Assembly (NCBI RefSeq): GCF_000003815.2
Contig: NC_049989.1
Span: forward strand, 6,379,647 to 6,443,646
Source of the DNA: Branchiostoma floridae
Lineage: Eukaryota > Chordata > Leptocardii > Amphioxiformes > Branchiostomatidae
Reading direction: 5' to 3'
Length of the DNA stretch: 64,000 nucleotides
Part shown: positions 16,281 to 64,000 of the stretch, piece by piece
Position numbering within the stretch: position 1 is the stretch's first letter
Layout of the letters: every line of letters starts with the position of its first letter
The notes under the pieces: model-generated
What the model saw: only the letters and a program-made list of their open reading frames with translations
Database searches by the model: none
What the model was told of the DNA's origin: nothing
Translations under genes and position numbers: made by a program

Positions 16281-18191
16281 CTAGATACGGAAAAACTTAA
16301 TGGAGTGCCGATCAGAAACGACCAACTGTCCGTCATGCATGGCCAGTCCCATTGGGAAGTTCAGTCCGTGTTTCTCCTGTGTCAGCACGTGTCTGATGAA
16401 CACGCCGTCCTCACTGAACAAGGAAACACGGTGGTTGACACTGTCTGCCACCAGCATGTTGTCCTCACTGTCCGTGATGACATCCGCCGGGTAGTTCAGC
16501 TGGCCAGGCCCCCAGCCAAACGATCCTGTCGTGAAGAGATGTCGGCCGGCGGGGTCGTATATCTTCAGGTAGTTATTACGCATGTTACTGACGATGATTT
16601 GGTTGCTGCTGTTGACGGTGACATGGAGGGCGGACTGCTGCTGACCTTGACCCTTTTCCTCGAACTTCCGAATTATGTCACCGCTGGGACTGATTACAAA
16701 CATTTGGGTCCCGATAGTAACGATGATGCGTCCGAATCTGTCCACAGCAACACCCCTTGTGGTTGCCTTTATGTCTGTAGCCCCTGCCACCTGGATGATG
16801 TGTTCCTCCCTCCTCCCATGTCTGTCCAGCACGCGGATGCTGTGTCCATCTCCTGTCACCAACAGCTCACCGTTTGTCAGTACTGCCACGCACAAGGGGT
16901 AGAAACTGAGATCGATCTTCTTAGAGGAGCCATCTTTGTCAAGAAATTGCAGTCGCTTGTTGTCGCGATCGGTGACTACAATGTTTCCGTCCGTGGTGAC
17001 AGCAAGTGATGTTGGCCAGTTAAACTCGGTATCGCCACTTCCTTTCTTCCCAACGGTTTTCAAGAGTATCGGCACTCTCGTTTGCCTGATCCCACCCATC
17101 AACTTAGCTACTTTCTGCTCCACGTTAACTTGACAAACTGGAGGAACAACGGTCAAGGTAATAAAGTCCTTGGTCATTTCAGGGCGTTCGTCCGTATTTT
17201 GCTCCGTCCATTCAGTCAGTTCTCCGGCCGCCGACAGCACCTCCGATGGGCTCCCGTACTCTAACACATCGTCCATGTGCTGGATACGGCTCCTGGCTGA
17301 AGCCAGGTCTACCTCAGCTGCCTCCATAGCTGTTTCCAACTGCGCCTCCCGTGCAGCATTCATGGCACGAAGCTGGCTGATTCTGTCATTCTTCATCTTC
17401 TCCACGGCCTCAATGATGGCCTGTGTCTGGTTTGCAATCTGTTCTTCTGTGCGCTGTACCTGTGAAGGCCACTCATCCCGCACTGACTGCAACTGTTGGA
17501 TCCACTTCTCGTGCCAGCCTGCTGTGTTTTGCACTGTCGACAGTTTCCCCTTGATCTTCGCTTTCTCCCTCTCCGCCGCCTCCTCTAGCTCCACATACTG
17601 GTGATCTTTGTGTGCCGTGACCACACAGTGCAGACAAATGACCCGGTGACAGGTGTCACAGTAGAACTTGTTCAATTCATTGTGATCCTCACACCTGAAG
17701 GTCTCGCTTGCTGGGAGCTCGGTGGATGCCTGACCAGATTGCAGTTCTTGAATCGTTACAACTTTGTGTGACCTGGTGATTTTGAGCCGACGGTGTACGC
17801 CGTTACACGTTTGGCACATGTGGTCAGTACACTCAACACAATAAAACTCAGCGGCATTACCCTTGTCACAGACCGCACAGGTGACACCTATCTCCCGGGG
17901 ATCTGATGCTTCACCATCCTCCTTAGCCTGTTGTTGCAGAATGTCGTGCAGCTTGCCGACAAGAAAGTTGGACTTTAGCCCCTGGACGCCATTTTGCGGG
18001 AGCGCCACGTCCTGTCGGCACGTGGGACAGGCCAGTTTTCCGTCCAGCTCTGCGGCCAGGAGCTTCTCCAAACACAGTTGGCAGAAGGTGTGAAGACACG
18101 GCAGCATCTTAGGCTGCTTGAAATCCTCCAAACAGACTTGACAGACGAGAAATTCATCGGTAATTTCGTTTATCGCGAAATTGGACGCCAT
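16281..18191 (-). CDS. TRIM-NHL protein (RING, two B-boxes, coiled coil, NHL propeller)
   Basis: A single uninterrupted frame of 636 residues from the ATG at 18191; an in-frame ATG at 18230 would add 13 residues. The later one is chosen because the RING then starts near residue 17 as usual for TRIMs. RING ligands are C17, C20, C32, H34, C37, C40, C55 and C58 (C3HC4). B-box 1 spans about 105-145. B-box 2 (about 167-197) has the full C-x2-H-x7-C-x2-C-x4-C-x2-C-x4-H-x2-H pattern. A coiled coil follows (about 200-325), then NHL repeats (about 385-636) with motifs such as FNWPTSLAVTTDGNIVVTDR and LNYPADVITDSEDNMLVAD. By family knowledge it is a RING E3 ubiquitin ligase whose propeller may bind RNA or protein. 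I see no filamin repeat between coil and propeller, unlike TRIM2, TRIM3 and TRIM71. TRIM genes are greatly expanded in lancelets, so one-to-one orthology should not be assumed. Lack of introns could reflect retroposition or the ancestral one-exon state. Confidence 0.94.
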   Translation of the reverse strand: MASNFAINEITDEFLVCQVCLEDFKQPKMLPCLHTFCQLCLEKLLAAELDGKLACPTCRQDVALPQNGVQGLKSNFLVGKLHDILQQQAKEDGEASDPREIGVTCAVCDKGNAAEFYCVECTDHMCQTCNGVHRRLKITRSHKVVTIQELQSGQASTELPASETFRCEDHNELNKFYCDTCHRVICLHCVVTAHKDHQYVELEEAAEREKAKIKGKLSTVQNTAGWHEKWIQQLQSVRDEWPSQVQRTEEQIANQTQAIIEAVEKMKNDRISQLRAMNAAREAQLETAMEAAEVDLASARSRIQHMDDVLEYGSPSEVLSAAGELTEWTEQNTDERPEMTKDFITLTVVPPVCQVNVEQKVAKLMGGIRQTRVPILLKTVGKKGSGDTEFNWPTSLAVTTDGNIVVTDRDNKRLQFLDKDGSSKKIDLSFYPLCVAVLTNGELLVTGDGHSIRVLDRHGRREEHIIQVAGATDIKATTRGVAVDRFGRIIVTIGTQMFVISPSGDIIRKFEEKGQGQQQSALHVTVNSSNQIIVSNMRNNYLKIYDPAGRHLFTTGSFGWGPGQLNYPADVITDSEDNMLVADSVNHRVSLFSEDGVFIRHVLTQEKHGLNFPMGLAMHDGQLVVSDRHSIKFFRI

Positions 18192-18230
18192 TTTAACCGG
18201 AAGTACAATGCTTAGGTCGTACTCTGACAC

Positions 18231-21200
18231 AGGAAGGTCAAAGGGTGGCGGGACGTTCCATTTCGGGTGTTCAAATGGGGGAGAAGTTCAGCTTCACAAC
18301 TATATTCAGAGGGTCTATCACTATGTATCAGGAGTGACCCCTCCTGTAATGAGTTCTACATTCTCTCAAATGTTCTAAGAGAAAAGGCTATGGATTGCAA
18401 AATAACAGGACTGAAAGGGTTTTGAAGATTTGCCAGCGCATCGGTTTTGAGGTTATACTTTGAGTTTGATAACTTTCTTTGATGTTGAAGACTGTAACGT
18501 TAACGTTGCTTTTTACATTGCGGTTGACGAGATCAGAGCAAAGTTACAAACCATCAAGTTACAGCAAGAAATAAAAGCGCGATACTTTTGAGCAATCAAA
18601 TGAACGCTTAAAGAAGATTTATGGAGTCATTTGCGTAAGGCAAGTCATTAAAGGGGGATCTTCATTATGGCGAAGCTGCTATGATGAGGTGAAGGAGGTT
18701 TTCATAGCAATTTGTGTCAAAGATGTCTGACAACAGGGGAAGATTTAGCCAGTAATGTTGCAATTAGCAAAGGTCATTGGGACGGTATAGCTCTCGTTTA
18801 AAAGATACATCGCCAGTGCGTCGGCTACAAAATCAGGATTTTAAGCGTTTGGCTGATTTGTTAAGAAAGCCGACTAAAGTGACTATTCAACTGGGCGGTA
18901 GGAGAAGTGCCTAAACCACATATTCTTACCCTTGCGCTGTGATATTTAAAGCACCGGTACAAACATATCATTTATCAGCCTCCACAAAATATGGCATGTT
19001 TTAGATGAAAAATCAAGTCTCACAACTGCCACTGTATATCACCGAGCGCAGTTACCTGCCAGAGCTGCTATAATTACCCACATTCCCCAGCAGCTAATCC
19101 CACATTCGGTCCCAAAGGGGCGGGAAATGACACGTTAGCAAAAGACACAATTAGGAAGAATCGACTGGAGAAAGAGCAAAAGATTACCTATAAATGTGTC
19201 TTGTGTAATTGGACACCCATACTAATGGCACGATGTTGAAAGGCTTCGAATTCGGTTCATTTGGCAGCTCCAATAGCCGGCCTTATTCAGCCACTGCCAT
19301 TGCTGGTGATGTCGCTGACGTTAAAAACACCTACTTTCGTATGTTCGATGTATCGTCTCTTGGTGCGGATGAACTTCAACATGGCAAACAAACAGGAATA
19401 GTGAAAGCACCATTCTTATAAAATACTGTTGATAACGACTCGTTATTAGTGTGCTGATTCCTGTGGTGAAAATACACTTCACAATTTTAGCTAATTGTCT
19501 TACTCTCGACAAACATCGACTTCGTGGTGTTTATTTTCAGGGGTTCAGCATTTTTGTCCAGCAACTGTGAGCATAAGTACAGACAGCAGACTAAAAATGT
19601 TGAATATTGAAAGTGATTATAACCGTGTTATAACCAACATATAACTGTCGCTTAGGTGAAAAGACGGTCGGCACGATTTGCATATCAGAATTTAGCAATA
19701 TCACTTTAGACATTCTCTGTTGCGGCTTCACTTCTATCCATTAAAGTTCCAACTTTTTGCAATCTATCTGATAAGAATTGTTAAGGAGAAAAGGCAGATG
19801 AATCAGGAATAACAACACATACCACTATGTTTGATTCGTAATGAACATCCTTCTGCGGCTGTACAATTTGGAGAATGTTACCAACAGATGGCGAGCCATT
19901 AGCTAAAGTGCTGTTATCCATTTTCATTGCCGCTGCCGCTTAAAGTTCCCATTTTCGGTAATTTGACGTTTTCTTTCTCAGAAGAAGGGCAAAGGGCGCG
20001 AGTGGAAAAACGGTCACGAAGTAGGAATACTTTTCCGAGTGTTCTTGTGCCACGCCACCCGCGTGGTTTGGTAATAATACTCCGCCCATACATGTCGTTA
20101 GCTGTACGTCTAGGAATGGCCATGACGTTCCTTTCCTGGTAATCAATACCGTTATGTGGAGAGAGAAGATTAAAGATATGCGATGTCCTTGGTAATTTCC
20201 AGACCAGTTGTTCGGTGACAACTTACGAGCGAAAGAGGGATTCATGTATGTACATGTTTTTGCTTCAAATTGCAACTGCCAAATGAAGAACAAGAAGACA
20301 AATTGCAAATGCTGTTGTGAAGTTACGTATGCAATTTGTCAGCGAACGGCATGGTCTTGAGACGTCATTACCAGACGACAGACTGTGTGACTGTGTAACG
20401 TTGTTCGGTACTTTCATCACCTTGTCACTGTCGACGATTAAAGCTCCCATTTACGTTAATTGCAGCCCTCTGATCTCACCCGAACTCGTTTTTGTTCACC
20501 TACCATCCACCGATGGTGAAAACTTGACAAGGTAATGTTGCAATCGTTACCAAGGTGATTATGATATGAAAGGAACTCATTTCTGCCCTTGTCACCCCCC
20601 GGTACGCGCCCTGATATAATTACCCTCCCGCTATGAGGTACAAAGGAATACGTGATCGACCTGTTGGGCTCTTCATACGTTCTGCACGCGGTGAAATTAT
20701 GGATTTTAAGCCGACTTGTGCATTGAACATCCCAAAAGGCCGTGTGTATGACTGGATTGGGTACTGTAAGGCTGTCAGGGACACAAACTCTTCAGCTGCG
20801 TATGCAGAAAAAACGTAGTACTTTTTTGTGTCAGCAATGTTTGACCTTGACAAGTGTGGTCTGTATATTTCCAAACAACAGAGCAAGATTGTACATGTAG
20901 CAGCGCAGGCATTAAACATGAATATAATGTTAATGTATACTTCATTGTACACAGATTGTAAACACTTTCTAAAGCGGCTGTATTACACATATATAGATCT
21001 ATGGTGTGATTTTCATCCCAACTCACGAAATGGACTCAACAGGCTACACAATATTAGTACCTTGCACACTAAGATAGAACTAAGCATTAAAACATAGATG
21101 AACAGACTCTGAGGTTCCGCTGTTTGTATGGCGTATATGATTCACTTTACAAACTCGATTTGTGCATTTCGCAACGTTGACAGGACACCGTTACAACCTA

Positions 21201-27356: not shown

Positions 27357-27447
27357 ATGTAGCCTCTACCAGGCCACGTGGATCGGTGGTCTTATTGTAG
27401 AAATTGGACAAATAGAGTCAATAGTACGTCAGGGGAGTCGGCCGGTC
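27357..27447 (+). repeat. Copy of a dispersed repeat shared with the 55-64 kb region
   Basis: The block begins near GTAGCCTCTACCAGGC and includes GTAGAAATTGGACAAATAGA and GGGGAGTCGGCCGGTCAA. The same block recurs near 55863, 57948, 61313 and 63382. It is a dispersed family and not coding. Confidence 0.75.
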
Positions 27448-28063
27448 AAGTAGAAACATTATCCTCACCACGAGTAGTGTATGTGTCTTGAAAACATTAA
27501 CTGTCTTGTTACAGAAAAGGCTTTCTTACATCCTTGTAGGTTTGTTCTGCTTGGTTCTATGATATCCAGTACATCTTTTTAAAAGTGCATCTTTACTAGT
27601 ACTTTCCCCAAGTTCCTGGGAGAAAGGTAGACTTCTAAAGGGCACTGAATGTATAGATGGGTGTTTGGAAAACTGCTGCTTCAAAATGGTTTTGATTGAC
27701 TTATTCTGACTGGCTTCTATCTAATAGACATCATCATCTAGAATTATTGTTGACGCATATCTATATATATATCAGCCCTTGTCCTTGATGCATAATGTAT
27801 TAGAAGGTATAGATAACACTATCATAACAGAAACGAGTACGTCCCATATCACTTCACGTCTTCATTATTATAGAGCAAGGATTCTGCACTTAATGGAATT
27901 ACTTCCACATTCCTTAGCATTTTCATGGTTATTTCCTTGCGGGAGTCTTCTTTTAATTAAGACCACAGAACTTTTCCCTTGAGTAATTATTCATGAAAGA
28001 CTGTCCTTAAAGCGATCTCCATTCTTATCTAATAAAGAGAAGAGATCCACATACTAGACATCA

Positions 28064-40500: not shown

Positions 40501-43500
40501 ACCCTCACCAGTCAGGGACCAAGTCACTTTTGCCTTGGGGAGAGAAGGTAGCAGAAGGATTACCCAGTTGTAGTTGGTAATTGGTTTTGGCCGTATACCA
40601 AGACTTTACTAGTAAATACCCTCTTTACAAACCTGATGAAGCTATTCATAGACATCTCACCATAGGAGCTTCAAATCAAGAGCACGATTTCATCTCTGAT
40701 GCAGACTGGGCAACTAATATTAGCAGCTGGAGCAGTGGCAACTATACTACTACTACTCTTTCCGAGCGTCAAGCCAGTAGCGACTTTTGAGTTGATATAA
40801 TCTGCATTGAGAGAAGACAGAAACTGCATCAAAAGGATTTGATTCTTCGCCATAAGATGGAATAAGAAATCGGACTACTCCGGTAAAACAGGAGACTGAG
40901 AACATGGCAAACAACAGTTCTGCTGCAATGCCTGGACCCAGCGAGTTGCATCATGCAGATCCGTTTGAATGCTATGCCTGGCACGTCCTGCTACAGAACA
41001 TGTCGTATGATGAAGCTGTCAACGCCTGCTCCTGGTACGAGGAAGCTCCCTTCAGCAAGGTAGTGACTGTCCTTTATATCCTTGTAGGAGTCACCATTGT
41101 AGTCTGCAACATTCTTGTGCTGTGGGGAATCGTGGCTAAGCAAGAACTCCATCAGCCCATGTATTTCTATGTCGCAAACCTTGCCATTACGGACTTGTTG
41201 GGTGGGGCAATGATTCTGTGGCATGTCCATTACAATGTAGATCACCACATGTACAAGCCGGGACCATACAATGTCTTACAGGTGAGGAGTGTCACCATGT
41301 TCTCCCAGTTTATGTCAGCGTCTGCTCTGAACTTACTGACTATGGACAGGTTTGTGGCAGTTAAGTACCCCATATTGTACTACAACCAGGTTACTCATGC
41401 CAGGCGTAATGCAGGTGTAGCGATTGTGTTTTCTTGGGTTGTACTTGCTCTGGTTGTGTTTCCAACATTGATGGGATGGAACTGTCTGGAGGAACCATAC
41501 TTGAGACATGGACACTGCATAGGACTTTTGCCCCTAGGGTACATCATAAGTAATGCATCTCTGATGCTCCTCCTTATTAGCATTTTGCTGTCCGTGAACA
41601 TCGTTGTGTATAAGGCAGTAAAACAACGGCAGGCAATAAAACAGAGAAAACAAAGAGAGTTGTTACAACCCAGCATTGCTGAGGATCAACAAAGAAAAAG
41701 GAAACAAGAACTAAATCAAGCAGCCAACATGGATTCAGACACAAGCAACAACAAACTGGCACCAAGAGCAGAAAAGCAGCAATCTGCAATTCAAACCAAC
41801 AAAGGTTTCCAATCCAGTATCATACAGAAGACACGGGCAGTCATGATCTTTTCCATTGTGGCAGTTGTCTTTTGGCTATTGGGTTTAATAGTTATGTCTG
41901 TCAAATGGATCCTGCAGAAAACATATCCAGAAAAAGACCTTCACAGGCAAGTTATACATTGGGCAGTTTTGTTCTTCTGTTTGAACTCAGTGGTCAACCC
42001 AATTGCAGGTATTGTCCGACTGACCGATCTAAGGGAAGCTATACGCCAGCAGCTTGGTAGACTCCTGCCTGGTTTCTGTAAATTATGTTATTGTATGTTT
42101 CAGCAAAAAAGTGCACAAGAAAATCAGCAGTGTGAACAGAATGATACTGATAAGCAAGAGAAACAGATGGTAGAAACTGAAATGCATGCAAACATTACTT
42201 CAGGACTTGATATGCATGGTCATAACACACGCGTTTTGGAAACTAATGTATAGAAAGGCATAGAAGACTGTGCTTCAAACATAGGTCATATTACAAGAAA
42301 AGAAAAATTCATAATGGTTCACAGATGTAAAGCAAAGCATTCATCAAACATTTTTGGAAAGAGGGACCCTAAGCTGAAAAATGTTTCTTTGCTACAGCTT
42401 GCAAAGATTGCAAATAAAGAAAGAACAAGTGAGGAACATCCACTGATATGACAGTATGTACATGTAAATGGCATCCTGATCCATACCCACTATCATCAAG
42501 AAACAAACAGGTTGTGGATTTAGATTTTCATCTGCAAGGTTGTTCTCAATTCAAGCACTCCCGTGTAGATTTGTGTTTTTCAACATGATTATTTGTAACA
42601 TAACATGATTATGATTAACATAATCTATGTCAGGATACTTCAAAAATATCTTTAGAATAACCGAAAGAAATTTGTTACAATCAGTCACATTTTTGAAATC
42701 AAAACTAGATAAAGTATGAATTGAAATTGATCGGATAAAAAGAAAGAAGAATGCTTTCATTTCATGAAAAATTTGACTAGAATGGATTGCCGTGGTCCGG
42801 CAGCTTGCCGTGGTCCGGCAGCTTGCCGTGGTCCGGCAGCTTGCCGTGGTCCGGCAGCTTGCCGTGGTCCGGCAGCTTGCCGTGGTCCGGCAGCTTGCCG
42901 TGGTCCGGCAGCTTGCCGTGGTCCGGCAGCTTGCCGTGGTCCGGCAGCTTGCCGTGGTCCGGCAGCTTGCCGTGGTCCGGCAGCTTATACAGCTTGGTGT
43001 ATATGGGAATTAAGTACAAATGTATCAAAACCATTTGATTGTAAATTTCTTCCTGCACCAAGGAAAGTTTGGTATTGTACAGCTTAGTCGAGTCATGGTT
43101 GGTATTCTATGTACATTGTACGTGTGCTTGCATGTAAATCTGCTTGGGAGAATACATTAAATGTCTGGGCTACAAGTCTTTGTCTTTCATCATTATGACC
43201 TACTAGACCTTTGGAAGAGGAAACAGACTGAAAGGTCTTGCTCTATTCATTGAGTTAAAGGCTTTTAATGGAAGCCTAGGTCAACCAAATTAGATCTTCC
43301 CTCAGTCATACTACTGTTTCAATATCCAATGTGAAACTCATTGTATATAGCTACAACAGAATTACCTACTACACAGGGTTGAAAAAGCCGATAATTAGCC
43401 AGATTGCCTGTACTACCATACATTTGTACAAGCAAACAAGAAAAACCTCTTCTACAACACAACCACCGCCTCAAGACAACCATTGTTTTACTGTTCCAAA

Positions 43501-54605: not shown

Positions 54606-54894
54606 GTCCTCGTTATCTGTTAAGTCATGAGATTCGGTCACATAGGTCGCGCGATCGTCATACCATCACTAACTTGGGGCATTCCAGAGGACAATCATGT
54701 AACGTTAAGTCTCTTGCGAAGTTCAACTGTCTTTGTACACAAAATGCTGTTTTAGATCCATGTCGGTTGTTGGTTCTGTCACGAAAAACTGTCGACCCTA
54801 GCCTTTTTAGGGTGGTGTGAGTGCGGGGGAGAGTTTGGGGGCCAAGTGTTGCAAAATTACTTACATATAAAGACAAGGATTTCCTCATATATAA

Positions 54895-55375
54895 GGCATC
54901 GATTAACACACTCATATATGTTCAGCTTTACACACACATATATATCTGGCAGGACAAACACATATATGTTCGTCTGCACACATACACATAACACATCGAA
55001 GCACACGCTCTTATATGTTTCTCTATACACATGCACATATACATGGTAGGACACACTCATATATCTTCAGCATTACACACACACATATATATGGTAGGAC
55101 AAGCACATATATGTTTGTCTGCACACATACACATACACATCGAAGCACACGCTCTTATATGTTTCTCTATACTCATACACATATACATGGTAGGACACCA
55201 ATATATATTTCAGCTTTAAAAGTACACACTCATTTGTTTCAGCTTCACACACACACTTGCGCACACAGACACACCTATATATATAGTATGTCACGTTCTT
55301 ATATGTTTCGCTTTACACACACACACATAATTACGCACACAGACACCCACTCACATATTTACATACATGATAACT
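54895..55375 (+). repeat. Degenerate tandem array, unit about 46 bp
   Basis: Units alternate CACATATATGTTCRGCTTTA and CACACATATATATCTGGYAG followed by GACAAA. Some units carry TCTGCACACATACACAT or CGAAGCACACGCTCTTATAT in their place. The matching array at 60253-60820 has two more full units. The HTHI/YMF-type frames here are by-products of the repeat. Confidence 0.85.
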
Positions 55376-56117
55376 CAGTCATAAATTTCTGAAAGTTATT
55401 ACTGTCACAAGCTATGGTCATGATTCTTTTAAAGTAGAAAGCTCTTACTAGTCGTAAAGAATTGGCGTCGGCTTGGGTCCCCTGTTTTGTTTGAGAAATT
55501 GAAGGGTAGAACTCCAGAAATGTTTGACAAATCTTCATAACTATTTGTATGTTCATAGCTTAAGTGATGATGGATATAAGCTCACGCTACATATGCAAAG
55601 AATGACCTACTTTGCATAATTGTGTGACTTTAGAACATGAAGAGAGTGAGATTAACTTTAATTGGAAACTTTGCAAATAAAGACATCATCTGCAAAATTG
55701 GTGTGTGCTGCAAATCATATATACGTATATGTATCATATAATTATACGTTTGGGCTGCAAACACTCCAACCGTTTGTCTTTTGTCGTCACCAATGATCAT
55801 AGAAAATATCGTCATGTTAGTCCAATGTTAAAGTATGCGGCAACGGTGTGGTGAGGACCAAGGTTAGCCTCTACCAGGCTTCGTAGATCGGTGGTCTAAA
55901 TGTAGCAATTGGACAAATAGAGTCATACTACACTAGGGGAGTCAGCCGGCCAGAACAATCATTTCCTCCGTAGGTCGCAAGCTGTTCCCTAGCTGGCTGT
56001 ACTTCTCTGGCCGGTTTGCCTATATTTGTTCCATCCTATGGTTTTCCGGCCAGCGACCTATGGAGTCTGGTATAGATTAGACTGTGGTACCAAACTTGCA
56101 TCAATGTTAAATGTTAA
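55376..56117 (+). other. Anonymous AT-rich spacer, duplicated near 60.8-61.56 kb
   Basis: There is no coding potential. The near-identical second copy is at about 60821-61563. It includes one copy of the dispersed repeat (55863-55960) and an inverted pair CCGTAGGTCGC / GCGACCTATGG around 55976-56060. Confidence 0.7.
55863..55960 (+). repeat. Dispersed repeat copy (family of 27357-27447)
   Basis: It contains AGCCTCTACCAGGCTTCGTA, GATCGGTGGTCTAAATGTAG, ATTGGACAAATAGAGTCA and GGGGAGTCAGCCGGCCAGAA. Confidence 0.8.
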
Positions 56118-56505
56118 GCGGCGTCACATATATCTGTGCTACAAAACATAGACATATGTGCGTGGTGAAGCACATATATATATATGTTTTGCAGGCAGAT
56201 GTATGTGTAACTGGTGCAGCACATATGTCTGCCACAGGACACAGATATATATGCGCTTCAGCACACACATATGTCTGCGTGCAAAACAGATATATATGTG
56301 TGATTCACCACACATATATGTGTGCCGTTGAAAACAGATATATCTGTGCTCCACTAAGCACATATGTCTGTCTTCGACGGCACACATATATGTGTGTGGT
56401 GAATCATATATATATCTGAATTTGACGGCACACATATGTGTGTATAAAGTAACACATATATCTGTTCTTTGCAGCACACATATATGTGTAGAAAGTCATA
56501 TATAA
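56118..56505. repeat. Palindromic-word array 1
   Basis: About 16 words of the CACATATATCTG / CAGATATATGTG type lie at a 23-24-bp pitch, with 8-12-bp spacers. Adjacent words tend to be inverted relative to each other, so both strands can fold into rows of hairpins. Confidence 0.9.
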
Positions 56506-56790
56506 AAAGGAGTCGAACCCAATAATCCAGGATCTAGAGTTAGCTTTTGACTAGTTTTAGAGTACAGTAGACACTTGTGATTTTGTATCTTACACCTTTC
56601 TTAATCTGTTATGTTAATTGTAATTATCCCACGGGCAAGAACTTGCAATTAACTTGTCAATATATAAATCTCTGTTATTTTTGGAACATGGTTATGTGAT
56701 TTAAAAATATATCTGATAATATACTATCACCGATATGTTCTTTAATGCACTGGCTCGCCCATCCATTCCAGCCGATTGGGAGTCGCACTA

Positions 56791-56978
56791 CTCTCCAAGT
56801 AGAGGTTAGGCTCCAGCTGTTTTTTTAACGTTTTTTGGTCGTTTTTTTATCGGACTCTCTATTTGTATCTTGTTAGGGTTTGACAACACAAGATACAATA
56901 CAAATTAGAAAGCCCGATAAAAGCTATTTAAAAAAAGGTAAAAAAAAAACAGCCGGAGCCTAACCTCTGCTTGGAGAG
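56791..56978. mobile_element. Foldback element, copy A
   Basis: The arms start CTCTCCAAGTAGAGGTTAGG and end CCTAACCTCTGCTTGGAGAG. The inverted arms are roughly 85-90 bp around a short TTAGGGTTTGACAA centre, and include AGATACAATACAAA with its complement. There is no coding capacity. Confidence 0.88.
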
Positions 56979-57039
56979 GCCTGCAAGTTCACGGGAATAT
57001 TCAACTTGCTCCTGCTAGCCTTTACTAAGGTGCCGTTTG

Positions 57040-57515
57040 CATATATTATATCTGTGCTACAACACACAGATATATGTAAAGCGGCGTCACATATATCTAT
57101 GCTACAAAACACAGACATATGCGCGTGGTGAAGCACATATATATCTGTTTTGCACGCAGATATATGTGTGACGGGTGCAGTACATATATGTCTGCCACAG
57201 GACACAGATATATATGTGCTTCCGCACACACATATGTCTGCGTGCAAAACAGATATATATGTGTAATTCACCACACATATATGTGTGCCGTTGAAAACAG
57301 ATATATATGTGCTCCACTAAGCACATATGTCTGTCTTCGACGGCAAACATATATGTGTGTGGTGAATCACATATATATCTGTCTTTGACGGCACACATAA
57401 TGTGTATAGAGTCACATATATATATATATCTGTTCTTTACAGCACACATATATGTGTAGAAAATCATATATATTTGTAATTTTTGGAACATGTATATGTG
57501 ATTTACACACATATA
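57040..57515. repeat. Palindromic-word array 2 (used as reference for the pattern)
   Basis: Word centres lie near 57093, 57118, 57141, 57164, 57187, 57212, 57234, 57257, 57281, 57305, 57327, 57352, 57374 and 57398, a pitch of 22-25 bp. Spacers are also mirror-related: TTTTGCACG after 57147 faces CGTGCAAAA at 57241-57249. GTGGTGAAG near 57125 faces AATTCACCAC near 57265. The array is thus one dyad centred near 57200 and a second centred near 57339. Confidence 0.92.
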
Positions 57516-57596
57516 TATCTGATAATATACTACTACCAATCTGTTTTTTAATGCTCTGGCTCACCCATCCATTTCAGCCGATTGGGAGTCGCACTA

Positions 57597-57794
57597 CTCT
57601 CCTAGCAGAGGTTAGGATCCGGCTGTTTTTAAAAACTTTTTTCAGTCGATTTTTATCGGGCTTTCTATTTTGTAGTGTATCTTGCATTGTTGTTAGGGTT
57701 TGACAACACAAGATACAATACAAAATAGAGATCCCGATAAAGATGACTAAAAAAAATGTTAAAAAACAGCCGGAGCCTAACACTGCTTGGAGAG
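57597..57794. mobile_element. Foldback element, copy B
   Basis: Left end CTCTCCTAGCAGAGGTTAGG, right end CCTAACACTGCTTGGAGAG. Both arms have the same order of blocks as the other copies, with the inner TTTTGTAGTGTATCTTG / AAGATACAATACAAAA pairing. Confidence 0.85.
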
Positions 57795-57831
57795 CAGAGA
57801 CGCACGCGGTCGCGCTGAATCTAGGACCCAA

Positions 57832-57930
57832 TTGTGTGTGTGGTTGTTTGTTTGTTTGTTTGTTTGTTTGAATCATTGTTTATTCATAAAAGCTCAAATC
57901 GGCCTACAGGCCTGCAAGTTCGCGAGAATA
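57832..57930 (-). mobile_element. LINE-like 3' tail with (TTTG)n
   Basis: TTTG repeats are followed by AATCATTGTTTATTCATAAA and GCTCAAATCGGCCTACAGGC. On the minus strand this reads as a 3' UTR with AATAAA and a (CAAA)n tail, like the two LINE tails elsewhere in the window. Copies recur near 59178-59270, 63283-63340 and 63722-63795. Confidence 0.6.
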
Positions 57931-57947
57931 TTCAACTCGCTCCCGCT

Positions 57948-58045
57948 AGCCTTTACCAGGCTCCTAGGATAGGTAATCAGTAGTCTAATAGTAGAAATTG
58001 GACAAATAGAGTTAATCTTTAGTACGCTGGAGGAGTCGGCCGGCC
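57948..58045 (+). repeat. Dispersed repeat copy (family of 27357-27447)
   Basis: It contains CCTTTACCAGGCTCCTAGGA, GTAGAAATTGGACAAATAGA and GGAGGAGTCGGCCGGCCAA. Confidence 0.75.
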
Positions 58046-58377
58046 AAAGGAGTTATTTCCTCACCTGATTTTTAAAAAGAGATTAAATTCTACCTGTCTG
58101 GAGCTGAAAGAAAAATACAGCTGGCTCGCTAAAGCAGTTGCGGTCTAAATAAAAACAAAATTTCTGTATTCTAGCCTTGTATCAAATCAGACTTAATCTT
58201 CAAGTTTCAAATCTTCGATAAACATTGAGGAAATTTTTTTAATGAAAATCCAATCCTCTGGCAACATTCGTTTTTCGCCTCAGCCTGGCCTTCAGTTACG
58301 TGGTGACCTCTTATGACCTCCTCTGTCTGGCCAAACTGCTAGTAATATGTACTTTTGTCGTGTCTCAATAAAGACTA
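58046..58377. other. Non-repetitive spacer, absent from the second copy
   Basis: No coding potential is seen. This spacer is part of the 885-bp segment (58026-58910) that is missing after the second gap. Confidence 0.6.
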
Positions 58378-58862
58378 TATATCGTTTGCATATATCTGTG
58401 CTACAACACACAGATAAATGTTATGCGGCGTCACATATATCTGTGCTACAAAACATAGACATATGTGCGTGGTGAAGCACATATATATCTGTTTTGAACG
58501 CAGATATATGTGTGACTGGTGCAGCACATATATGTCTGCCACATGACATAGATATATATGTGCTTCCGCACACACATATGTCTGCGTGCAAAACAGATAT
58601 ATGTGTGTAATTCACCACACATATATGTGTGCCGTTGAAAACAGATATATGTGTTCCACTAAGCACATATGTCTGTCTTCGACGGCACACATATATGTGC
58701 GTGGTGAGTCACATATATATCTGTCTTTGACGGCACACATTTGTGTGTATAAAGTAACACATATATCTGTTCTTTGCAGCACACATATATGTGTGGAAAA
58801 TCATATATATGTATATCTGTTATTTTTGGAATATGTTTATGTGATTTCAAATATACATCTGA
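58378..58862. repeat. Palindromic-word array 3
   Basis: Same word and spacer order as array 2, including CGTGGTGAAG, TTTTGAACG, GTGCAAAAC and CCGTTGAAAAC spacers. Several words are shortened by two bases. Confidence 0.9.
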
Positions 58863-58937
58863 TAATATCCTACCACCAAGCTGTTATTTAATGCTCTGGC
58901 TCGCCCATCCATTTCAGCCGATTGGGAGTCGCACTAA

Positions 58938-59134
58938 TCTCAAGGCAGAGGTTAGGCTATGGCTGTTTTTTTAAACGTTTTTTTAGTCGTTTTTATCGGA
59001 CTCTCTATTTTGTATTGTATCTTGTATTGTTAGGGTTTGACAACACAACATACAATATAAAATAGAAAGCCTGATAAAAACTATTTAAAAAAAGCTAAAA
59101 AAACACAGCCGGAGCCTAACCTCTGCTTGGAGAG
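58938..59134. mobile_element. Foldback element, copy C
   Basis: Left end TCTCAAGGCAGAGGTTAGGC, right end CTAACCTCTGCTTGGAGAG. It has the same inner pairing as the other copies. Confidence 0.85.
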
Positions 59135-59177
59135 TAGAGACGCACGCGGTCGCGCTAAATCTAGGACCACACGGGGG

Positions 59178-59270
59178 AATTGCTTGTGTGTTTGTTTGTT
59201 TCTTTGTTTGTTTGTTTGTTTGAATCATTGTTTATTCATGAAAGCTCAATTCGGCCTGCAAGCCTGCAAG
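59178..59270 (-). mobile_element. LINE-like 3' tail with (TTTG)n, copy 2
   Basis: TTTG repeats are followed by AATCATTGTTTATTCATGAA and GCTCAATTCGGCCTGC. It has the same layout as 57832-57930. Confidence 0.55.
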
Positions 59271-59327
59271 TTCACGGGAATATTCAACTTGCTCCTGCTA
59301 GCCTTTACTAAGGTGTCATTTGCATAT

Positions 59328-59760
59328 ATTATATCTGTGCTACAACACACAGATATAGATTAAAGCGGCGTCACATATATCTGTGCTACAAAACATAGAC
59401 ATATGTGCGTGGTGAAGCACATATATATCTGTTTTGCACGCAGATATATGAGTGACTGGTGCAGCACATATATGTCTGCCACAGGACACAGATATATATG
59501 TGCTTCCGCACACACACATGTCTGCGTGCAAAACGGATATATATGTGTCATTCACCACACATATATGTGTGCCGTTGAAATCAGATATATATATGTGCTC
59601 CACTTAGCACATATGTCTGTCTTCGACGGCACACATATATGTGTGTGGTGAATCACATATATATATGTCTTTGACGGCACACATATGTGTGTATAAAGTA
59701 ACACATATATCTGTTCTTTGTATCACACATACATGTGAGGAAAATCATATATTTAGATCT
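59328..59760. repeat. Palindromic-word array 4
   Basis: Same word and spacer order as arrays 2 and 3. Small length changes in the TATATA cores shift the pitch by two bases in places. Confidence 0.9.
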
Positions 59761-59872
59761 ATCCATTATTTTTGGAACGTTTATGTGATTTCAAATATGT
59801 ATCTGATAATATACTACCATCAATCTGTTCTTTAATGCTCTGGCATCTCAACCGATTGGGAGTCGCACTTAT

Positions 59873-60070
59873 CTCCAAGCAGAGGTTAGGCTCCGGCTGT
59901 TTTTAGACGTTTTTTTTTTGTCGTTTTTATCGGACTCTCTATTTTGTATTGTATCTTGTATTGTTAGGATTTGACAACACAAGATACAATACAAAATAGA
60001 AAGCCCGATAAAAGCAATTAAAAAAAAGCTAAAAAAACACACAGCCGGAGCCTAACCTCTGCTTGGAGAG
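59873..60070. mobile_element. Foldback element, copy D (cleanest)
   Basis: CTCCAAGCAGAGGTTAGGCT at the left faces AGCCTAACCTCTGCTTGGAG at the right. The arms then pair through CCGGCTGT/ACAGCCGG and TATTTTGTATTGTATCTTGT with its complement, with a TTAGGATTTGAC centre. It ends 21 bases before the second gap. Confidence 0.9.
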
Positions 60071-60091
60071 TAGAGGGAGTATTAGACTCCT

Positions 60092-60191
60092 NNNNNNNNN
60101 NNNNNNNNNNNNNNNNNNNNNNNNNNNNNNNNNNNNNNNNNNNNNNNNNNNNNNNNNNNNNNNNNNNNNNNNNNNNNNNNNNNNNNNNNNN
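60092..60191. other. Scaffold gap (100 N)
   Basis: Exactly 100 N, a placeholder gap. The sequence to its right restarts a block already present from 54842. Confidence 0.98.
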
Positions 60192-60252
60192 TATTGGGGG
60201 CCAAGTGTTGCAAAATTACTTACATATAAAGACAAGGATGTCCTCATATATA

Positions 60253-60820
60253 AGGCATCGATTAACACACTCATATATGTTCAGCTTTACACACACATAT
60301 ATATCTGGTAGGACAAACACATATATGTTCAGCTTTACACACACATATATATCTGGTAGGACAAACACATATATGTTCAGCTTTACACACACATATATAT
60401 CTGGTAGGACAAACACATATATGTTCAGCTTTACACATACACATAACACATCGAAGCACACGCTCTTATATGTTTCTCTATACACATGCACATATACATG
60501 GTAGGACACACTCATATATCTTCACCATTACACACACACATATATATGGTAGGACAAGCACATATATGTTCGTCTGCACACATACACATCGAAGCACACG
60601 CTCTTATATGTTTCTCTATACTCATACACATATACATGGTAGGACACCAATATATATTTCAGCTTTAAAATTACACACTCATTTGTTTCAGCTTCACACA
60701 CACACTTGCGCACACAGACACACATATATATAGTATGTCACGTTCTTATATGTTTCGCTTTACACACACACACATAATTACGCACACAGACCCACTCACA
60801 TATTTACATACATGATAACT
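60253..60820 (+). repeat. 46-bp tandem array, second copy (expanded)
   Basis: It has three near-perfect units of CACATATATGTTCAGCTTTA plus CACACATATATATCTGGTAG where the first copy has one. The rest matches 54895-55375. Confidence 0.9.
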
Positions 60821-61563
60821 CAGTCATAAATTTCTGAAAATTATTACTGTCACAAGCTATGGTCATGATTCTTTTAAAGTAGAAAGCTCTTACTAGTCGT
60901 AAAGAATTGCCGTCGGCTTAGGTCCCCTGTTTTGTTTGAGAAATTGAAGGGTAGAACTCCAGAAATGTTTGACAAATCTTCACAACTATTTGTATGTTCA
61001 TAGTTTAAGTGACGGTGGATATAAGCTCACGCTACATATGCAAAGAATGATCTACTTTGCATAATTGTGTGACTTTAGAACATGAAGAGAGTGAGATTAA
61101 CTTTAATTGGAAACTTTGCAAATAAAGACATCATCTGCAAAATTGGTGTGTGCTGCAAATCATATATACGTATATGTATCATATAATTATACGTTTGGGC
61201 TGCAAACACTCCAACCGTTTGTCTTTTGTCGTCACCAATGATCATAGAAAATATCGTCATGTTAGTCCAATGTTAAAGTATGCGGCAACGGTGTGGTGAG
61301 GACCAAGGTTAGCCTCTACCAGCGGCTTCGTAGATCGGTGGTCTAAATGTAGCAATTGGACAAATAGAGTATTACTACACTAGGGGAGTCAGCCGGCCAG
61401 AACAATCATTCCCTCCGTAGGTCGCAAGCTGTTCCCTAGCCGGCTGTACTTCTCTGGCCGGTTTACCTATATTTGTTCCATCCTATGGTTTTCCGGCCAG
61501 CGACCTATGGAGTCTGGTATAGACTAGACTGTGGTACCAAACTTGCATCAATGTTAAATGTTA
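60821..61563 (+). other. Anonymous AT-rich spacer, second copy of 55376-56117
   Basis: Near-identical to 55376-56117 with scattered single-base differences. It contains the dispersed-repeat copy at 61313-61402, here with a GCG insertion (CCAGCGGCTTCG). Confidence 0.8.
61313..61402 (+). repeat. Dispersed repeat copy (family of 27357-27447)
   Basis: This is the second-block equivalent of 55863-55960. Confidence 0.8.
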
Positions 61564-61950
61564 AGCGGCGTCACATATATCTGTGCTACAAAACATAGAC
61601 ATATGTGCGTGGTGAAGCACATATATATATGTTTTGCAGGCAGATGTATGTGTAACTGGTGCAGCACATATGTCTGCCACAGGACACAGATATATATGCG
61701 CTTCAGCACACACATATGTCTGCGTGCAAAACAGATATATATGTGTGATTCACCACACATATATGTGTGCCGTTGAAAACAGATATATATGCACTCCACT
61801 AAGCACATATGTCTGTCTTCGACGGCACACATACATGTGTGTGGTGAATCATACATATATATGAATTTGACGGCACACATATGTGTGTATAAAGTAACAC
61901 ATATATCTGTTCTTTGCAGCACACATATATGTGTGGAAAGTCATATATAA
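61564..61950. repeat. Palindromic-word array 5 (equivalent of array 1)
   Basis: Word for word the same as 56118-56505, with a few substitutions. Confidence 0.9.
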
Positions 61951-62235
61951 AAAGGAGTCGAACCCAATAATCCAGGATCTAGAGTTAGCTTTTGACTAGT
62001 TTTAGAGTACAGTAGACACTTGTGATTTTGTATCTTACACTGTTCTTAATCTGTTATGTTAATTGCAATTAGCCCACGGGCAAGAACTTGCAATTAACTT
62101 GTCAATATATAAATCTCTGTTATTTTTGGAACATGGTTATGTGATTTAAAAATATATCTGATAATATACTATCACCGATATCTTCTTTAATGCACTGGCT
62201 CGCCCATCCATTCCAGCCGATTGGGAGTCGCACTA

Positions 62236-62422
62236 CTCTCCAAGTAGAGGTTAGGCTCCAGCTGTTTTTTTAACGTTTTTTGGTCGTTTTTAATCGGACT
62301 CTCTATTTGTATCTTGTTAGGGTTTGACAACACAAGATACAATACAAATTAGAAAGCCCGATAAAAGCTATTTAAAAAAAGGTAAAAAAAAAACAGCCGG
62401 AGCCTAACCTCTGCTTGGAGAG
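62236..62422. mobile_element. Foldback element, copy E (equivalent of copy A)
   Basis: Left end CTCTCCAAGTAGAGGTTAGG, right end CCTCTGCTTGGAGAG. It shares the loss of one inner block with copy A. Confidence 0.88.
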
Positions 62423-62485
62423 GCCTGCAAGTTCACGGAAATATTTAACTTGCTCCTGCTAGCCTTTACTAAGGTGCCGTTTGCA

Positions 62486-62970
62486 TATATTATATCTGTG
62501 CTACAACACACAGATATATGTAAAGCGGCGTCACATATATATATGCTTAGCAGCTACAAAACACAGACATATGCGCGTGGTGAAGCACATATATATCTGT
62601 TTTGCACGCAGATATATGTGTGACGGGTGCAGTACATATATGTCTGCCACAGGACACAGATATATATGTGCTTCCGCACACACATATGTCTGCGTGCAAA
62701 ACAGATATATATGTGTAATTCACCACACATATATGTGTGCCGTTGAAAACAGATAGATATGTGCTCCACTAAGCACATATGTCTGTCTTCGACGGCAAAC
62801 ATATATGTGCGTGGTGAATCACATATATATCTGTCTTTGACGGCACACATAATGTGTATAGAGTCACATATATATCTGTTCTTTACAGCACACATATATG
62901 TGTAGAAAATCATATATATTTGTAATTTTTGGAACATGTATATGTGATTTACACACATATATTTCTGATA
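62486..62970. repeat. Palindromic-word array 6 (equivalent of array 2)
   Basis: Same as 57040-57515, with a small CTTAGCAG insertion near 62545 and one AGATAGATATG change. Confidence 0.9.
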
Positions 62971-63042
62971 ATATACTACTACCAATCTGTTTTTTAATGC
63001 TCTGGCTCGCCCATCCATTTCAGCCGATTGGGAGTCGCACTA

Positions 63043-63239
63043 CTCTCCTAGCAGAGGTTAGGATCCGGCTGTTTTTAAAAACTTTTTTCAGTCGTTTTTT
63101 ATCGGGCTTTCTATTTTGTAGTGTATCTTGCAATGTTGTTAGGGTTTGACAACACAAGATACAATACAAAATAGAAATCCCGATAAAGATGACTAAAAAA
63201 ATGTTAAAAAACAGCCCGAGCCTAACACTGCTTGGAGAG
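63043..63239. mobile_element. Foldback element, copy F (equivalent of copy B)
   Basis: Left end CTCTCCTAGCAGAGG, right end CCTAACACTGCTTGGAGAG. It shares copy B's variant ACACTGC end. Confidence 0.87.
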
Positions 63240-63381
63240 CAGAGACGCACGCGGTCGCGCTGAATCTAGGACCCAATTGTGTGTGTGGTTGTTTGTTTGA
63301 ATCATTGTTTATTCATAAAAGCTCAAATCGACCTACAGGCCTGCAAGTTCGCGAGAATATTCAACTCGCTCCCGCTATCCT

Positions 63382-63454
63382 TTACCAGGCTCCTAGGATC
63401 GGTAATCAGTAGTCTAATAGTAGAAATTGGACAAATAGAGTTAATCTTTAGTAC
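63382..63454 (+). repeat. Dispersed repeat copy, cut by the deletion breakpoint
   Basis: It matches 57948-58025 and stops at AGTAC, where the sequence jumps to the equivalent of 58911. Confidence 0.8.
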
Positions 63455-63481
63455 ATTTCAGCCGATTGGGAGTCGCACTAA

Positions 63482-63678
63482 TCTCAAGGCAGAGGTTATG
63501 CTACGGCTGTTTTTTTAAACGTTTTTTAGTCGTTTTTATCGGACTCTCTATTTTGTATTGTATCTTGTATTGTTAGGGTTTGACAACACAACATACAATA
63601 CAAAATAGAAAGCCTGATAAAAACTATTTAAAAAAAGCTAAAAAAAACACAGCCGGAGCCTAACCTCTGCTTGGAGAG
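63482..63678. mobile_element. Foldback element, copy G (equivalent of copy C)
   Basis: Left end TCTCAAGGCAGAGGTTATGC, right end CCTCTGCTTGGAGAG. Confidence 0.85.
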
Positions 63679-63721
63679 TAGAGACGCACGCGGTCGCGCT
63701 AAATCTAGGACCACACGGGGG

Positions 63722-63795
63722 AATTGCTTGTGTGTTTGTTTGTTTGTTTGTTTGTTTGTTTGAATCATTGTTTATTCATGAAAGCTCAATTCGGC
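63722..63795 (-). mobile_element. LINE-like 3' tail with (TTTG)n, copy 4
   Basis: Equivalent of 59178-59270, with a perfect TTTG run of about seven units. Confidence 0.55.
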
Positions 63796-63869
63796 CTGCA
63801 AGCCTGCAAGTTCACGGGAATATTCAACTTGCTCCTGCTAGCCTTTACTAAGGTGTCATTTGCATATAT

Positions 63870-64000
63870 TTTATCTGTGCTACAACACACAGATATATGT
63901 AAAGCGGCGTCACATATATCTGTGCTACAAAACATAGACATATGTGCGTGGTGAAGCACATATAATCTGTTATGCACGCAGATATATGAGTGACTGGTGC
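63870..64000. repeat. Palindromic-word array 7 (cut by window end)
   Basis: It begins like array 4 (ATCTGTGCTACAACACACAG) and runs off the window. Confidence 0.85.

Follow-up and report, generated by a model that had tools for sequence, protein, structure and literature searches.

Seven arrays of ATATAT words in an arm of repeats

The window, a stretch of 64,000 nucleotides of Branchiostoma floridae DNA, contains seven arrays of ATATAT words, the number given in the original prediction; the seventh is interrupted by the end of the window and continues beyond it (Table 1). In six of the seven arrays the top autocorrelation lag was 24 (z 6.1-10.1, with 300 dinucleotide shuffles per array and a 95% limit of 3.1-3.2 for the best lag). 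No lag was significant in the partial array 7 (best z 2.7, limit 3.3). The periodicity was thus retained against dinucleotide shuffles, at lag 24. Lags 22 and 26 were also positive and lag 23 was negative, because purines and pyrimidines alternate within the words. Steps between word centres, as measured with a crude run finder, were mostly 14-34 bp, with outliers of 9-9.5 bp (three, at split words) and 45-51 bp (four, each with a missed word). Therefore, the steady pitch of 23-24 bp that had been proposed holds as an average but not for each step. As expected, a word and its inverse alternate: by eye, the alignment has CACATATATCTG-like followed by CAGATATATGTG-like words, part of which are complete palindromes. 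A full array has about 16-18 words by manual count (16-20 by the run finder in arrays 1-6), of the same order as, but above, the 14-16 anticipated. Open frames of 120-161 aa span the arrays on both strands and appear, by eye, to be by-products of the word periodicity. The window had no match to Rfam at the gathering threshold and no tRNA, and two patterns searched against viral contigs found no match.

Homology between copies begins at the terminus at 54833, and an array with a 48-bp period starts 73 bp from it; this sub-terminal part of the arm, with its array, has matches at the ends of two other blocks of the genome, B and C (see below). Every array is followed by a different near-palindrome of 200 bp. 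The region of the one past array 2 (57580-57810), when folded as DNA, gave -68.3 as compared to -20.6 for shuffles. Arrays 5-7 are near copies of arrays 1, 2 and 4, and nothing beside the near-palindrome at 63478-63681 corresponds to the array 3 stretch (58025-58910).

Table 1. Features of the arm in the window and of the three blocks in the genome
Feature	Position	Strand	Remarks
Left terminus, block A	54833-54858	+	reads GTTTGGGGGCCAAG.., other copies TATTGGGGGCCAAG..
Sub-terminal array	54906-55218	+	TRF period 48, two ATATAT words per unit
Arm between 48-bp array and array 1	55219-56117	+	dispersed repeat at 55865-55968
Array 1	56118-56504	+	
Near-palindrome past array 1	56788-56978	+	outer arms 36 nt, 94% complementary
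Array 2	57030-57478	+	mirror centres near 57200, 57340
Near-palindrome past array 2	57594-57797	+	folding z -15
Array 3	58382-58815	+	
Near-palindrome past array 3	58934-59137	+	
Array 4	59318-59756	+	
Near-palindrome past array 4	59872-60073	+	
Assembly gap	60092-60191		exactly 100 N, contig junction
Second terminus copy	60192-60217	+	first base is the start of the next contig
Second 48-bp sub-terminal array	60265-60667	+	TRF
Array 5	61565-61949	+	98.3% identity to array 1
Near-palindrome past array 5	62233-62422	+	
Array 6	62478-62924	+	99.3% identity to array 2
Near-palindrome past array 6	63040-63242	+	
Additional near-palindrome, 200 bp	63478-63681	+	counterpart of that at 58934
Array 7	63850-64000	+	continues to 64281 past the window; 97.3% identity to array 4
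Block A	window 54833 to +132243		far end inverted
Block B	+157583 to +224935		67.4 kb
Block C	contig C2		31.1 kb
Terminus shared by block ends			TATTGGGGGCCAAGTGTTGCAAAATT

Spacers and folding

The spacers TTTTGCACG (57148) and CGTGCAAAA (57241) are exact reverse complements. On a consensus parse typed by hand, the mirror sums near 57200 and 57340 were better than those of letter-shuffled spacers (1/1000 and 0/1000 shuffles as good, respectively). Their excess was marginal over real spacers that were permuted (49/1000 and 17/1000) or flipped (55/1000 and 68/1000), and with the best over all centres the figures were 171/1000 and 68/1000. Of the mirror-image spacers proposed about these two centres, the relatedness in both orientations is firm, and the exact mirror order is suggestive.

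Array 2 folded to -214 kcal/mol as compared to -121 for shuffles, so that the suggested test of folding energy against shuffled controls came out positive. When the words were kept and only the spacer letters shuffled, the mean was -151 as compared to -191 for the native array, and none of 200 shuffles was as low. The array is a long inverted repeat that folds, as a hairpin-RNA precursor would be, and the hairpin-forming capacity of the arrays is real. This could suit a small-RNA locus in which one strand is transcribed, the hairpins are diced and pairing is under selection, as could the slow divergence of the arrays: arrays 1-4 differ by 5-6%, and the adjoining AT and palindrome segments by 9-18% (Fisher p ≤0.009 in all six pairs). 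However, gene conversion accounts equally well for the latter, a third adjoining segment ranged from 0/51 to 8/56 changes, and among near-identical copies the arrays were not clearly slower (10/827 changes as compared to 35/1831 elsewhere, as summed counts with no statistic and excluding the 48-bp array, 9/478, and the mixed stretch 58910-59462, 7/546). Across six copies pairing was within the range of shuffles (297/500), one pair had changed on both sides where 1.3 were expected, and none of 141 consensus pairs was compensated. A larger set of 26 distinct copies, kept out of 55 after copies shorter than 340 bp or below 83%, and then those at least 97% like one already kept, were dropped, had a paired fraction of 95.4%, above permutations (2/500), and 8 double changes where 3.5 were expected (5/500), but the kinship of the copies alone could suffice for this small excess. 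Thus, of the idea of a selected hairpin structure, folding beyond shuffles stands, whereas covariation is null in six copies and slight in 26; we regard a small-RNA locus as highly improbable.

The arrays recur in three blocks with inverted ends

A search elsewhere in the lancelet genome had been suggested, and in the stretches read of the animal's own genome (513 Mb) three blocks with these arrays, A, B and C, were found, with the common terminus TATTGGGGGCCAAGTG... The blocks range from 31 to 77 kb, and the arrays sit within their inverted arms. Within the stretches read, 6 sites on C11 and a further 2 on C2 match the 26-bp terminus with up to 5 mismatches, and the terminus returns inverted at the far side of each block, 8 ends in total. 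Termini and flanks were read out at five places. The common left edge of the copies lies at 54835, 60194 and 75299 of the window's numbering and at 13782113 and 13813246 of C2. Identity between copies is mostly 96-98% (pieces of at least 250 bp and 93% identity). The flanks gave no match in the three comparisons made, which were of 132-157 kb with the left part of the window, of 132-157 kb with the left flank of block C, and of the left part of the window with C2. The blocks have, that is, the same ends, mutually inverted, at several unrelated sites.

Where both edges can be read, in blocks B and C, they carry a direct repeat of exactly 7 bp, GCGTGAC for block B and GAAATAC for block C; the edge of block A is unreadable. 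A 7-bp match arose by chance 19 times in 200,000 random draws. These repeats are as expected of a target-site duplication of fixed length, and a 5-bp duplication with C..G as the ends of the element is indistinguishable from one of 7 bp.

The polarity of the arrays reverses within the blocks. With copies shorter than 180 bp or below 80% left out, 62 arrays were found on C11 and 12 on C2. In block B, all 10 arrays of the left arm are in the plus orientation and all 8 of the right arm in the minus orientation; block C has 8 plus arrays and then 4 minus, and block A has 20 plus as far as 86 kb, followed by 19 minus and 5 plus. Block A consists of many contigs and has three left ends and these 5 arrays of the wrong polarity, block C is interrupted by a gap of some 10.3 kb, and the arms of block B are colinear for the outer 0.4 kb only, with re-ordered modules and assembly gaps further in. 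The exact word CACATATATCTG, searched on both strands, was absent from the C11 stretches read beyond blocks A and B, and on C2 it is confined to block C.

An ordinary higher-order minisatellite or satellite without any mobile unit, whose 48-bp dyads multiplied through slippage and unequal exchange, would account for the TRF periods of the arm repeats (24 and 48 bp), for the length changes among array copies, which are mostly AT steps, and for the tandem units, which follow from array to array at 963, 1344 and 940 bp as calculated from coordinates. The reversed polarity, the common ends that return inverted at the far side and the 7-bp direct repeats argue against it. Moreover, the arrays are not long, homogeneous and head-to-tail with a single period: they are about 0.4 kb long, the units differ in length, the words alternate, and, in the stretches read, no exact word lies outside the blocks. 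We consider this explanation improbable. In a variant, an ordinary satellite is combined with a false tandem made by two haplotypes placed side by side. The copies on either side of the 100-N gap are 97-99% alike, and amphioxus heterozygosity is given as 3.2-4.2% in excerpts of one report (PMC12500494). This variant was rejected as insufficient, as it leaves the other genomic sites unexplained; haplotype duplication may still be true of the contig that starts at 60192.

Since the blocks have shared ends, inverted far ends, 7-bp repeats and a reversal of polarity, the arrays of the window are very probably part of the long inverted arm, full of tandem repeats, of a very large DNA transposon of the foldback type. 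The shared ends and 7-bp repeats suggest, on a direct reading, that the unit inserted as a whole. The view that the arrays are more than a simple satellite is borne out in that they lie in mirror-image arms of a mobile-looking element, and repeated inverted duplication, the origin first suggested for them, fits and extends further, to the inverted arms of blocks of 31 to 77 kb.

The core of block B

Between its arms, block B has a core of about 32 kb with no arrays and no exact word CACATATATCTG on either strand. The core is fragmentary in look and was seen in this block only, blocks A and C having none as assembled. Among 120 core frames of at least 58 aa (frames of low entropy, containing N or crossing a 10-kb locus edge were dropped), one was above the Pfam cut-off, an integrase-core exon that matched rva_4 at 4e-7, in part (profile positions 101-151 of 194). 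A second pass, with 55 of 70 new frames of 32-57 aa, found no further integrase domain. Pfam matches to HTH (0.002) and AAA (0.0042) did not reach their cut-offs and did not stand out from the unrelated hits of the scan: CCCAP (0.001), DUF6901 (0.0029), herpesvirus glycoprotein B (0.0048) and DUF6675 (0.0065), which are at chance level given 120 frames. A PDB comparison of core frames gave a weak hit to EccA1 (0.0082). The AAA-like frame had weak NCBIfam hits to EccA (0.01) and spore_V_K (0.012); the HTH-like exon had NCBIfam hits to myo_inos_iolE (0.00042) and three others (0.0025-0.015), all of the NCBIfam hits being far under the cut-offs. For the HTH-like exon there was no PDB chain up to 0.1 and no phage record.

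The pairing of an integrase with an AAA ATPase recalls Tn7- and Mu-like systems. An undescribed giant chordate transposon of 67 kb, with a 7-bp duplication, its own rva_4 integrase and AAA ATPase, and arrays of dyad words as a docking lattice at its ends, is nevertheless rather unlikely, a reading that loses weight with AAA and HTH scores at chance level in the scan. The unit could instead be a composite, in which a piece of host DNA became enclosed by two ordinary foldback elements and the integrase exon in the core belongs to an older, unrelated insertion. The fragmentary look of the core and its absence from blocks A and C are consistent with this, and in excerpts of a report on flies, foldback elements move long segments between them (PMC6431247); the 7-bp repeat at the outer ends, however, implies that the 67-kb block inserted as a single unit. 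A composite is a possibility, if the less probable course. With regard to the arrays themselves it would be a sub-case of the foldback transposon, and the odds of the two overlap.

Comparison with known elements

FB is a foldback element with repeat-filled arms. Tetris, also a foldback element, has long inverted arms with internal tandem repeats, and the arm repeats of Galileo are said to carry extra transposase binding sites (both PMC4079207). The unit of B. floridae resembles all three in the tandem repeats inside long inverted arms, the satellite-like character of these repeats, the target duplication and the rearranged modular forms. In contrast, it is far larger, at 31 to 67 kb and more, has a 7-bp edge repeat and an integrase exon inside a core that spans about 32 kb, and, in place of a 220-bp repeat, has a 24/48-bp lattice of dyad words alternating with a 200-bp palindrome.

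Teratorn has a piggyBac transposase and a TTAA duplication, and Maverick/Polinton elements have polymerase B and capsid genes and a 5- or 6-bp duplication. Unlike in Teratorn, the edges here are GCGTGAC and GAAATAC rather than TTAA, and unlike in Mavericks there is no 6-bp duplication; no piggyBac, polymerase or capsid profile was matched in the 120 core frames of at least 58 aa, in which introns could hide genes. In size, tens of kilobases, and possible cargo, the unit is in the same class as these elements and the composite foldback units of flies (PMC6431247).

Ginger elements have an integrase-type transposase and occur in lancelet; Ginger1 is about 2.6-7 kb, with terminal inverted repeats (TIRs) of 40-270 bp and a 4-bp duplication of the CCGG type, Ginger2 has TIRs of 50-180 bp and a 4-bp duplication, and their relatives TDD-4 and TDD-5 have 5-bp duplications (PMC2836005). 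An integrase-type enzyme would be a likeness, and the 5 bp of TDD-4/5 would match the alternative reading of the edges. However, the arms here are of kilobases and the duplication is of 7 (or 5) bp, as compared to 4 bp and TIRs below 0.3 kb in Ginger.

Among AT-rich repeats, the fragile-site minisatellites FRA16B and FRA10B have units of 33-42 bp, replication in vitro is stalled by 14 units of FRA16B (PMC9714581), and palindromic AT-rich repeats are on record (PMC4940405, PMC3197554). The arrays are AT-rich and palindromic like these, but FRA16B and FRA10B are not presented as transposon arms in excerpts of that report, and the arrays have alternating words and mirror-related spacers. The 'mirage' minisatellites of lancelet, which are unstable in length and duplicate gene exon-intron borders (PMC3087553), are likewise lancelet minisatellites; the arrays differ in lying within the arms of blocks. 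By title or start of abstract, the literature searched contained no account of such an array or element, with Repbase and most subscription journals outside its scope.

A model for the arms

We propose that the ends would be recognised, and the unit mobilised, by a transposase, for which the core's rva_4 integrase is a candidate. The lattice of words at a 24-bp pitch, which begins 73 bp inside the end as the 48-bp array, may offer many docking sites for this enzyme; it is possible that the words are a binding array, most naturally for the transposase. The arms would have grown by inverted and tandem duplication, first of 48-bp dyads and later of units of about 1 kb made of an array and a 200-bp palindrome. 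The capacity to form hairpins may be a by-product of this growth, and may in turn promote further rearrangement.

The arms would illustrate one origin of minisatellite and palindrome arrays, through growth at the ends of a mobile element. If the words are sites for a transposase, the question of why dozens of end sites occur in some transposons could be put to a direct test. Moreover, as lancelets are an outgroup to the vertebrates, a 67-kb unit apparently inserted whole would show that DNA transposition moves very large segments.

Structure and folding of the arrays

The seven arrays of ATATAT words were located by self-comparison and word finding where they had been predicted (see the table), the last being cut by the window end. 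Their steady pitch was also borne out, as A1-A6 all had their autocorrelation maximum at lag 24, with z values of 6.1-10.1 relative to 300 dinucleotide shuffles per array; the peak was not seen in A7, which is too short to show one. In an alignment read by eye, CACATATATCTG, an inner spacer, CAGATATATGTG and an outer spacer follow one another in strict alternation. Some words are full palindromes, and the inner and outer spacer classes are each found in both orientations.

The original prediction also held that the spacers of array 2 are mirror images about two centres. This stands against letter-shuffled spacers, which reached the mirror sums at the centres near 57200 and 57340 in 1/1000 and 0/1000 trials, but the exact order is only marginally special: permuting or flipping the real spacers matched it in 17-68/1000, and when the best of all centres was taken the sums were matched in 171/1000 and 68/1000. 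Folded as RNA, array 2 reached -214 kcal/mol (+ strand) and -218 (- strand), against -121 and -123 for shuffles, and as DNA -119.6 against -57.6. Because shuffling the spacer letters with the words unchanged never gave folding as good (0/200; mean -150.8, native -190.6), the spacers contribute to folding; permuted and flipped spacers folded as well as the native array in 3/200 and 9/200 trials.

A5 is 98.3% identical to A1, A6 99.3% to A2 and A7 97.3% to A4, the remaining pairs showing 88-94%. A gap of 100 N precedes the contig of A5-A7, which starts at 60192 with the first base of the element terminus. Array 6 carries an 8-bp insertion, GCTTAGCA (62545-62552), the sole length change among six array copies that is neither an AT step nor a single base.

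Recurrence and shared ends

Across the 513-Mb assembly (431 contigs), exact CACATATATCTG words number 364, and the reversed pattern, used as a control, 213. Among the matches listed was a cluster on a second contig, C2. The window lies at 6379647-6443646 of its own contig, C11. The stretches read were C11 up to window position 244000, with 188/364 of the words, and an 80-kb region of C2 that surrounds the cluster, with 28/364. As the remaining 148 fall below the control's 213, the counts suggest few further copies in this genome. The exact word is absent from C11 1-54832, 132343-157581, 176001-207999 and 224937-244000 (window numbering). On contig C4, four exact words at a 112-bp step (4116097-4116444) perhaps form another tandem array.

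Copies share a common start at one base (54835, 60194, 75299 and C2:13782113; inverted at C2:13813246), mostly with 96-98% identity. The terminus, TATTGGGGGCCAAGTGTTGCAAAATTACTTACATATAAAG, occurs with ≤5 mismatches at six sites on C11 and two on C2 in the stretches read, delimiting blocks A, B and C. Direct repeats of exactly 7 bp stand at both edges of B (GCGTGAC) and C (GAAATAC); random pairs matched over 7 bp in 19/200,000 cases. Should the element include the preceding C and the following G, the duplication is 5 bp, and the two readings fit equally well. Three flank comparisons gave no homology match. At a third left end, +75293 to +75300, which is perhaps a further insertion, the contig has only seven flanking bases, CGCGGCC, unlike the two repeats.

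Array polarity is inverted between arms: B has 10 + arrays in its left arm and 8 - in its right, C has 8 + and then 4 -, and in A all 20 arrays up to 86 kb are +, followed by 19 that are - and 5 that are +. The arms of B align over the outer 0.4 kb at 95.5%, with deeper modules matched in a different order; those of C match over the outer 1.47 kb at 98.4%.

Features of the window and of the related blocks (positions beyond 64000 are counted from the window start; L008, L009 and L030 are stretches read)
Feature	Location	Strand	Remarks
Arrays A1-A7	starts 56118, 57030, 58382, 59318, 61565, 62478, 63850
Terminus copies, C11	54833, 60192, 75300, 157583	+	≤5 mismatches
Terminus copies, C11	132243, 224935	-	≤5 mismatches
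Terminus copies, C2	two	one +, one -	≤5 mismatches
Block A	window 54833 to +132243		assembled length 77 kb, in many contigs; duplication not readable
Block B	+157583 to +224935		67.4 kb, ~2.3 kb of it N
Block C	C2:13782114-13813245		31.1 kb; one gap of ~10.3 kb plus smaller gaps
Reverse-transcriptase-like ends (by eye)	L030:8709-8999, L030:9185-9472 (core of B); L009:8529-8948 (arm)		apparent nested retroelement pieces; two L030 frames without Pfam match
Non-LTR retrotransposon	9766-12390	-	endonuclease and reverse transcriptase matches; single long frame
TRIM-NHL frame	16281-18287	-	667 aa; RING, B-box, NHL (TRIM-type)
Rhodopsin-type GPCR	40856-42253	+	single frame
Tandem repeat	42787-42986		perfect 18-bp unit, 11.1 copies of TTGCCGTGGTCCGGCAGC, 100%
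Dispersed repeat, ~107 bp	55865-55968, 27360-27466		83% identical
Distant copies of that repeat	57947-58062; another in L008		first lies upstream of array 3

Coding content of the core of block B

One of 120 core frames, each of at least 58 aa, matched rva_4 (Pfam PF24764, integrase core; E 4e-7, 30.4 bits, cut-off 26) over profile positions 101-151 of 194. An HTH-domain match (0.002) lies in a frame ~4 kb upstream on the same strand, and an AAA match (0.0042) in a frame on the opposite strand; being below their cut-offs and level with unrelated hits in the same scan, these alone carry little weight. The AAA-like frame also weakly matched EccA and stage V sporulation protein K (PDB, NCBIfam), and by eye a neighbouring frame (L030:5553-5693) has a Walker-A-like GTGKT. 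As the integrase match is partial and 55 shorter core frames (32-57 aa) held no additional piece, the gene structure is tentative; introns may interrupt the enzyme, or it may be broken. No counterpart of this core was found in A or C as assembled.

Divergence of the arrays

Substitutions among arrays 1-4 amount to 5-6%, against 9-18% in the adjoining AT and palindrome segments (Fisher p ≤0.009 in 6/6 pairs); in a third, short neighbouring segment changes range from 0/51 to 8/56 between pairs. The slower change could be due to constraint or gene conversion. In the near-identical pairs A1/A5 and A2/A6, the summed counts for arrays (10/827) and for three other matched stretches (35/1831; 55330-58030) are not clearly different, and spacers changed at 1/308 columns and words at 9/438.

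The hairpin reading holds for folding capacity, but we do not claim selection for structure. Consensus pairs include no compensated pair (0/141), and a 150-pair structure in six copies paired no better than shuffles; with the partner slid by two bases, 64-67% of cells in these copies remain paired because of the AT repeats. The 26 distinct copies show a small pairing excess (permutations reach the paired fraction in 2/500 and the double changes in 5/500), of a size that relatedness alone can give.

Words and spacers are alike in variable columns across arrays 1-4 (23/219 and 18/154), and heterozygosity in the 26 copies is 0.072 and 0.080 (p 0.13). The alternative to a role in transposase binding is that the arms grew passively by inverted and tandem duplication.

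Discussion

The shared ends, inverted far ends and 7-bp repeats argue that the unit is mobile, and the arrays very probably belong to a giant foldback-type transposon, as its outer left arm. Tetris and Galileo have the same plan on a smaller scale (PMC4079207), and Teratorn and fly composite foldback units, which mobilise long segments, fall in the same size class (PMC6431247). Ginger has an integrase-type enzyme in common with block B but differs in size and TIR and, on the 7-bp reading, in duplication (PMC2836005), and FRA16B-type minisatellites are likewise fold-prone AT-rich repeats (PMC9714581).

The dyad lattice starts 73 bp from the element end and fills both arms. Galileo arm repeats are reported to hold transposase binding sites (PMC4079207). 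Taken by itself, the step of assigning that role to the lancelet words is tentative and somewhat doubtful; an ordered dyad lattice of this kind would most simply be a set of such sites.
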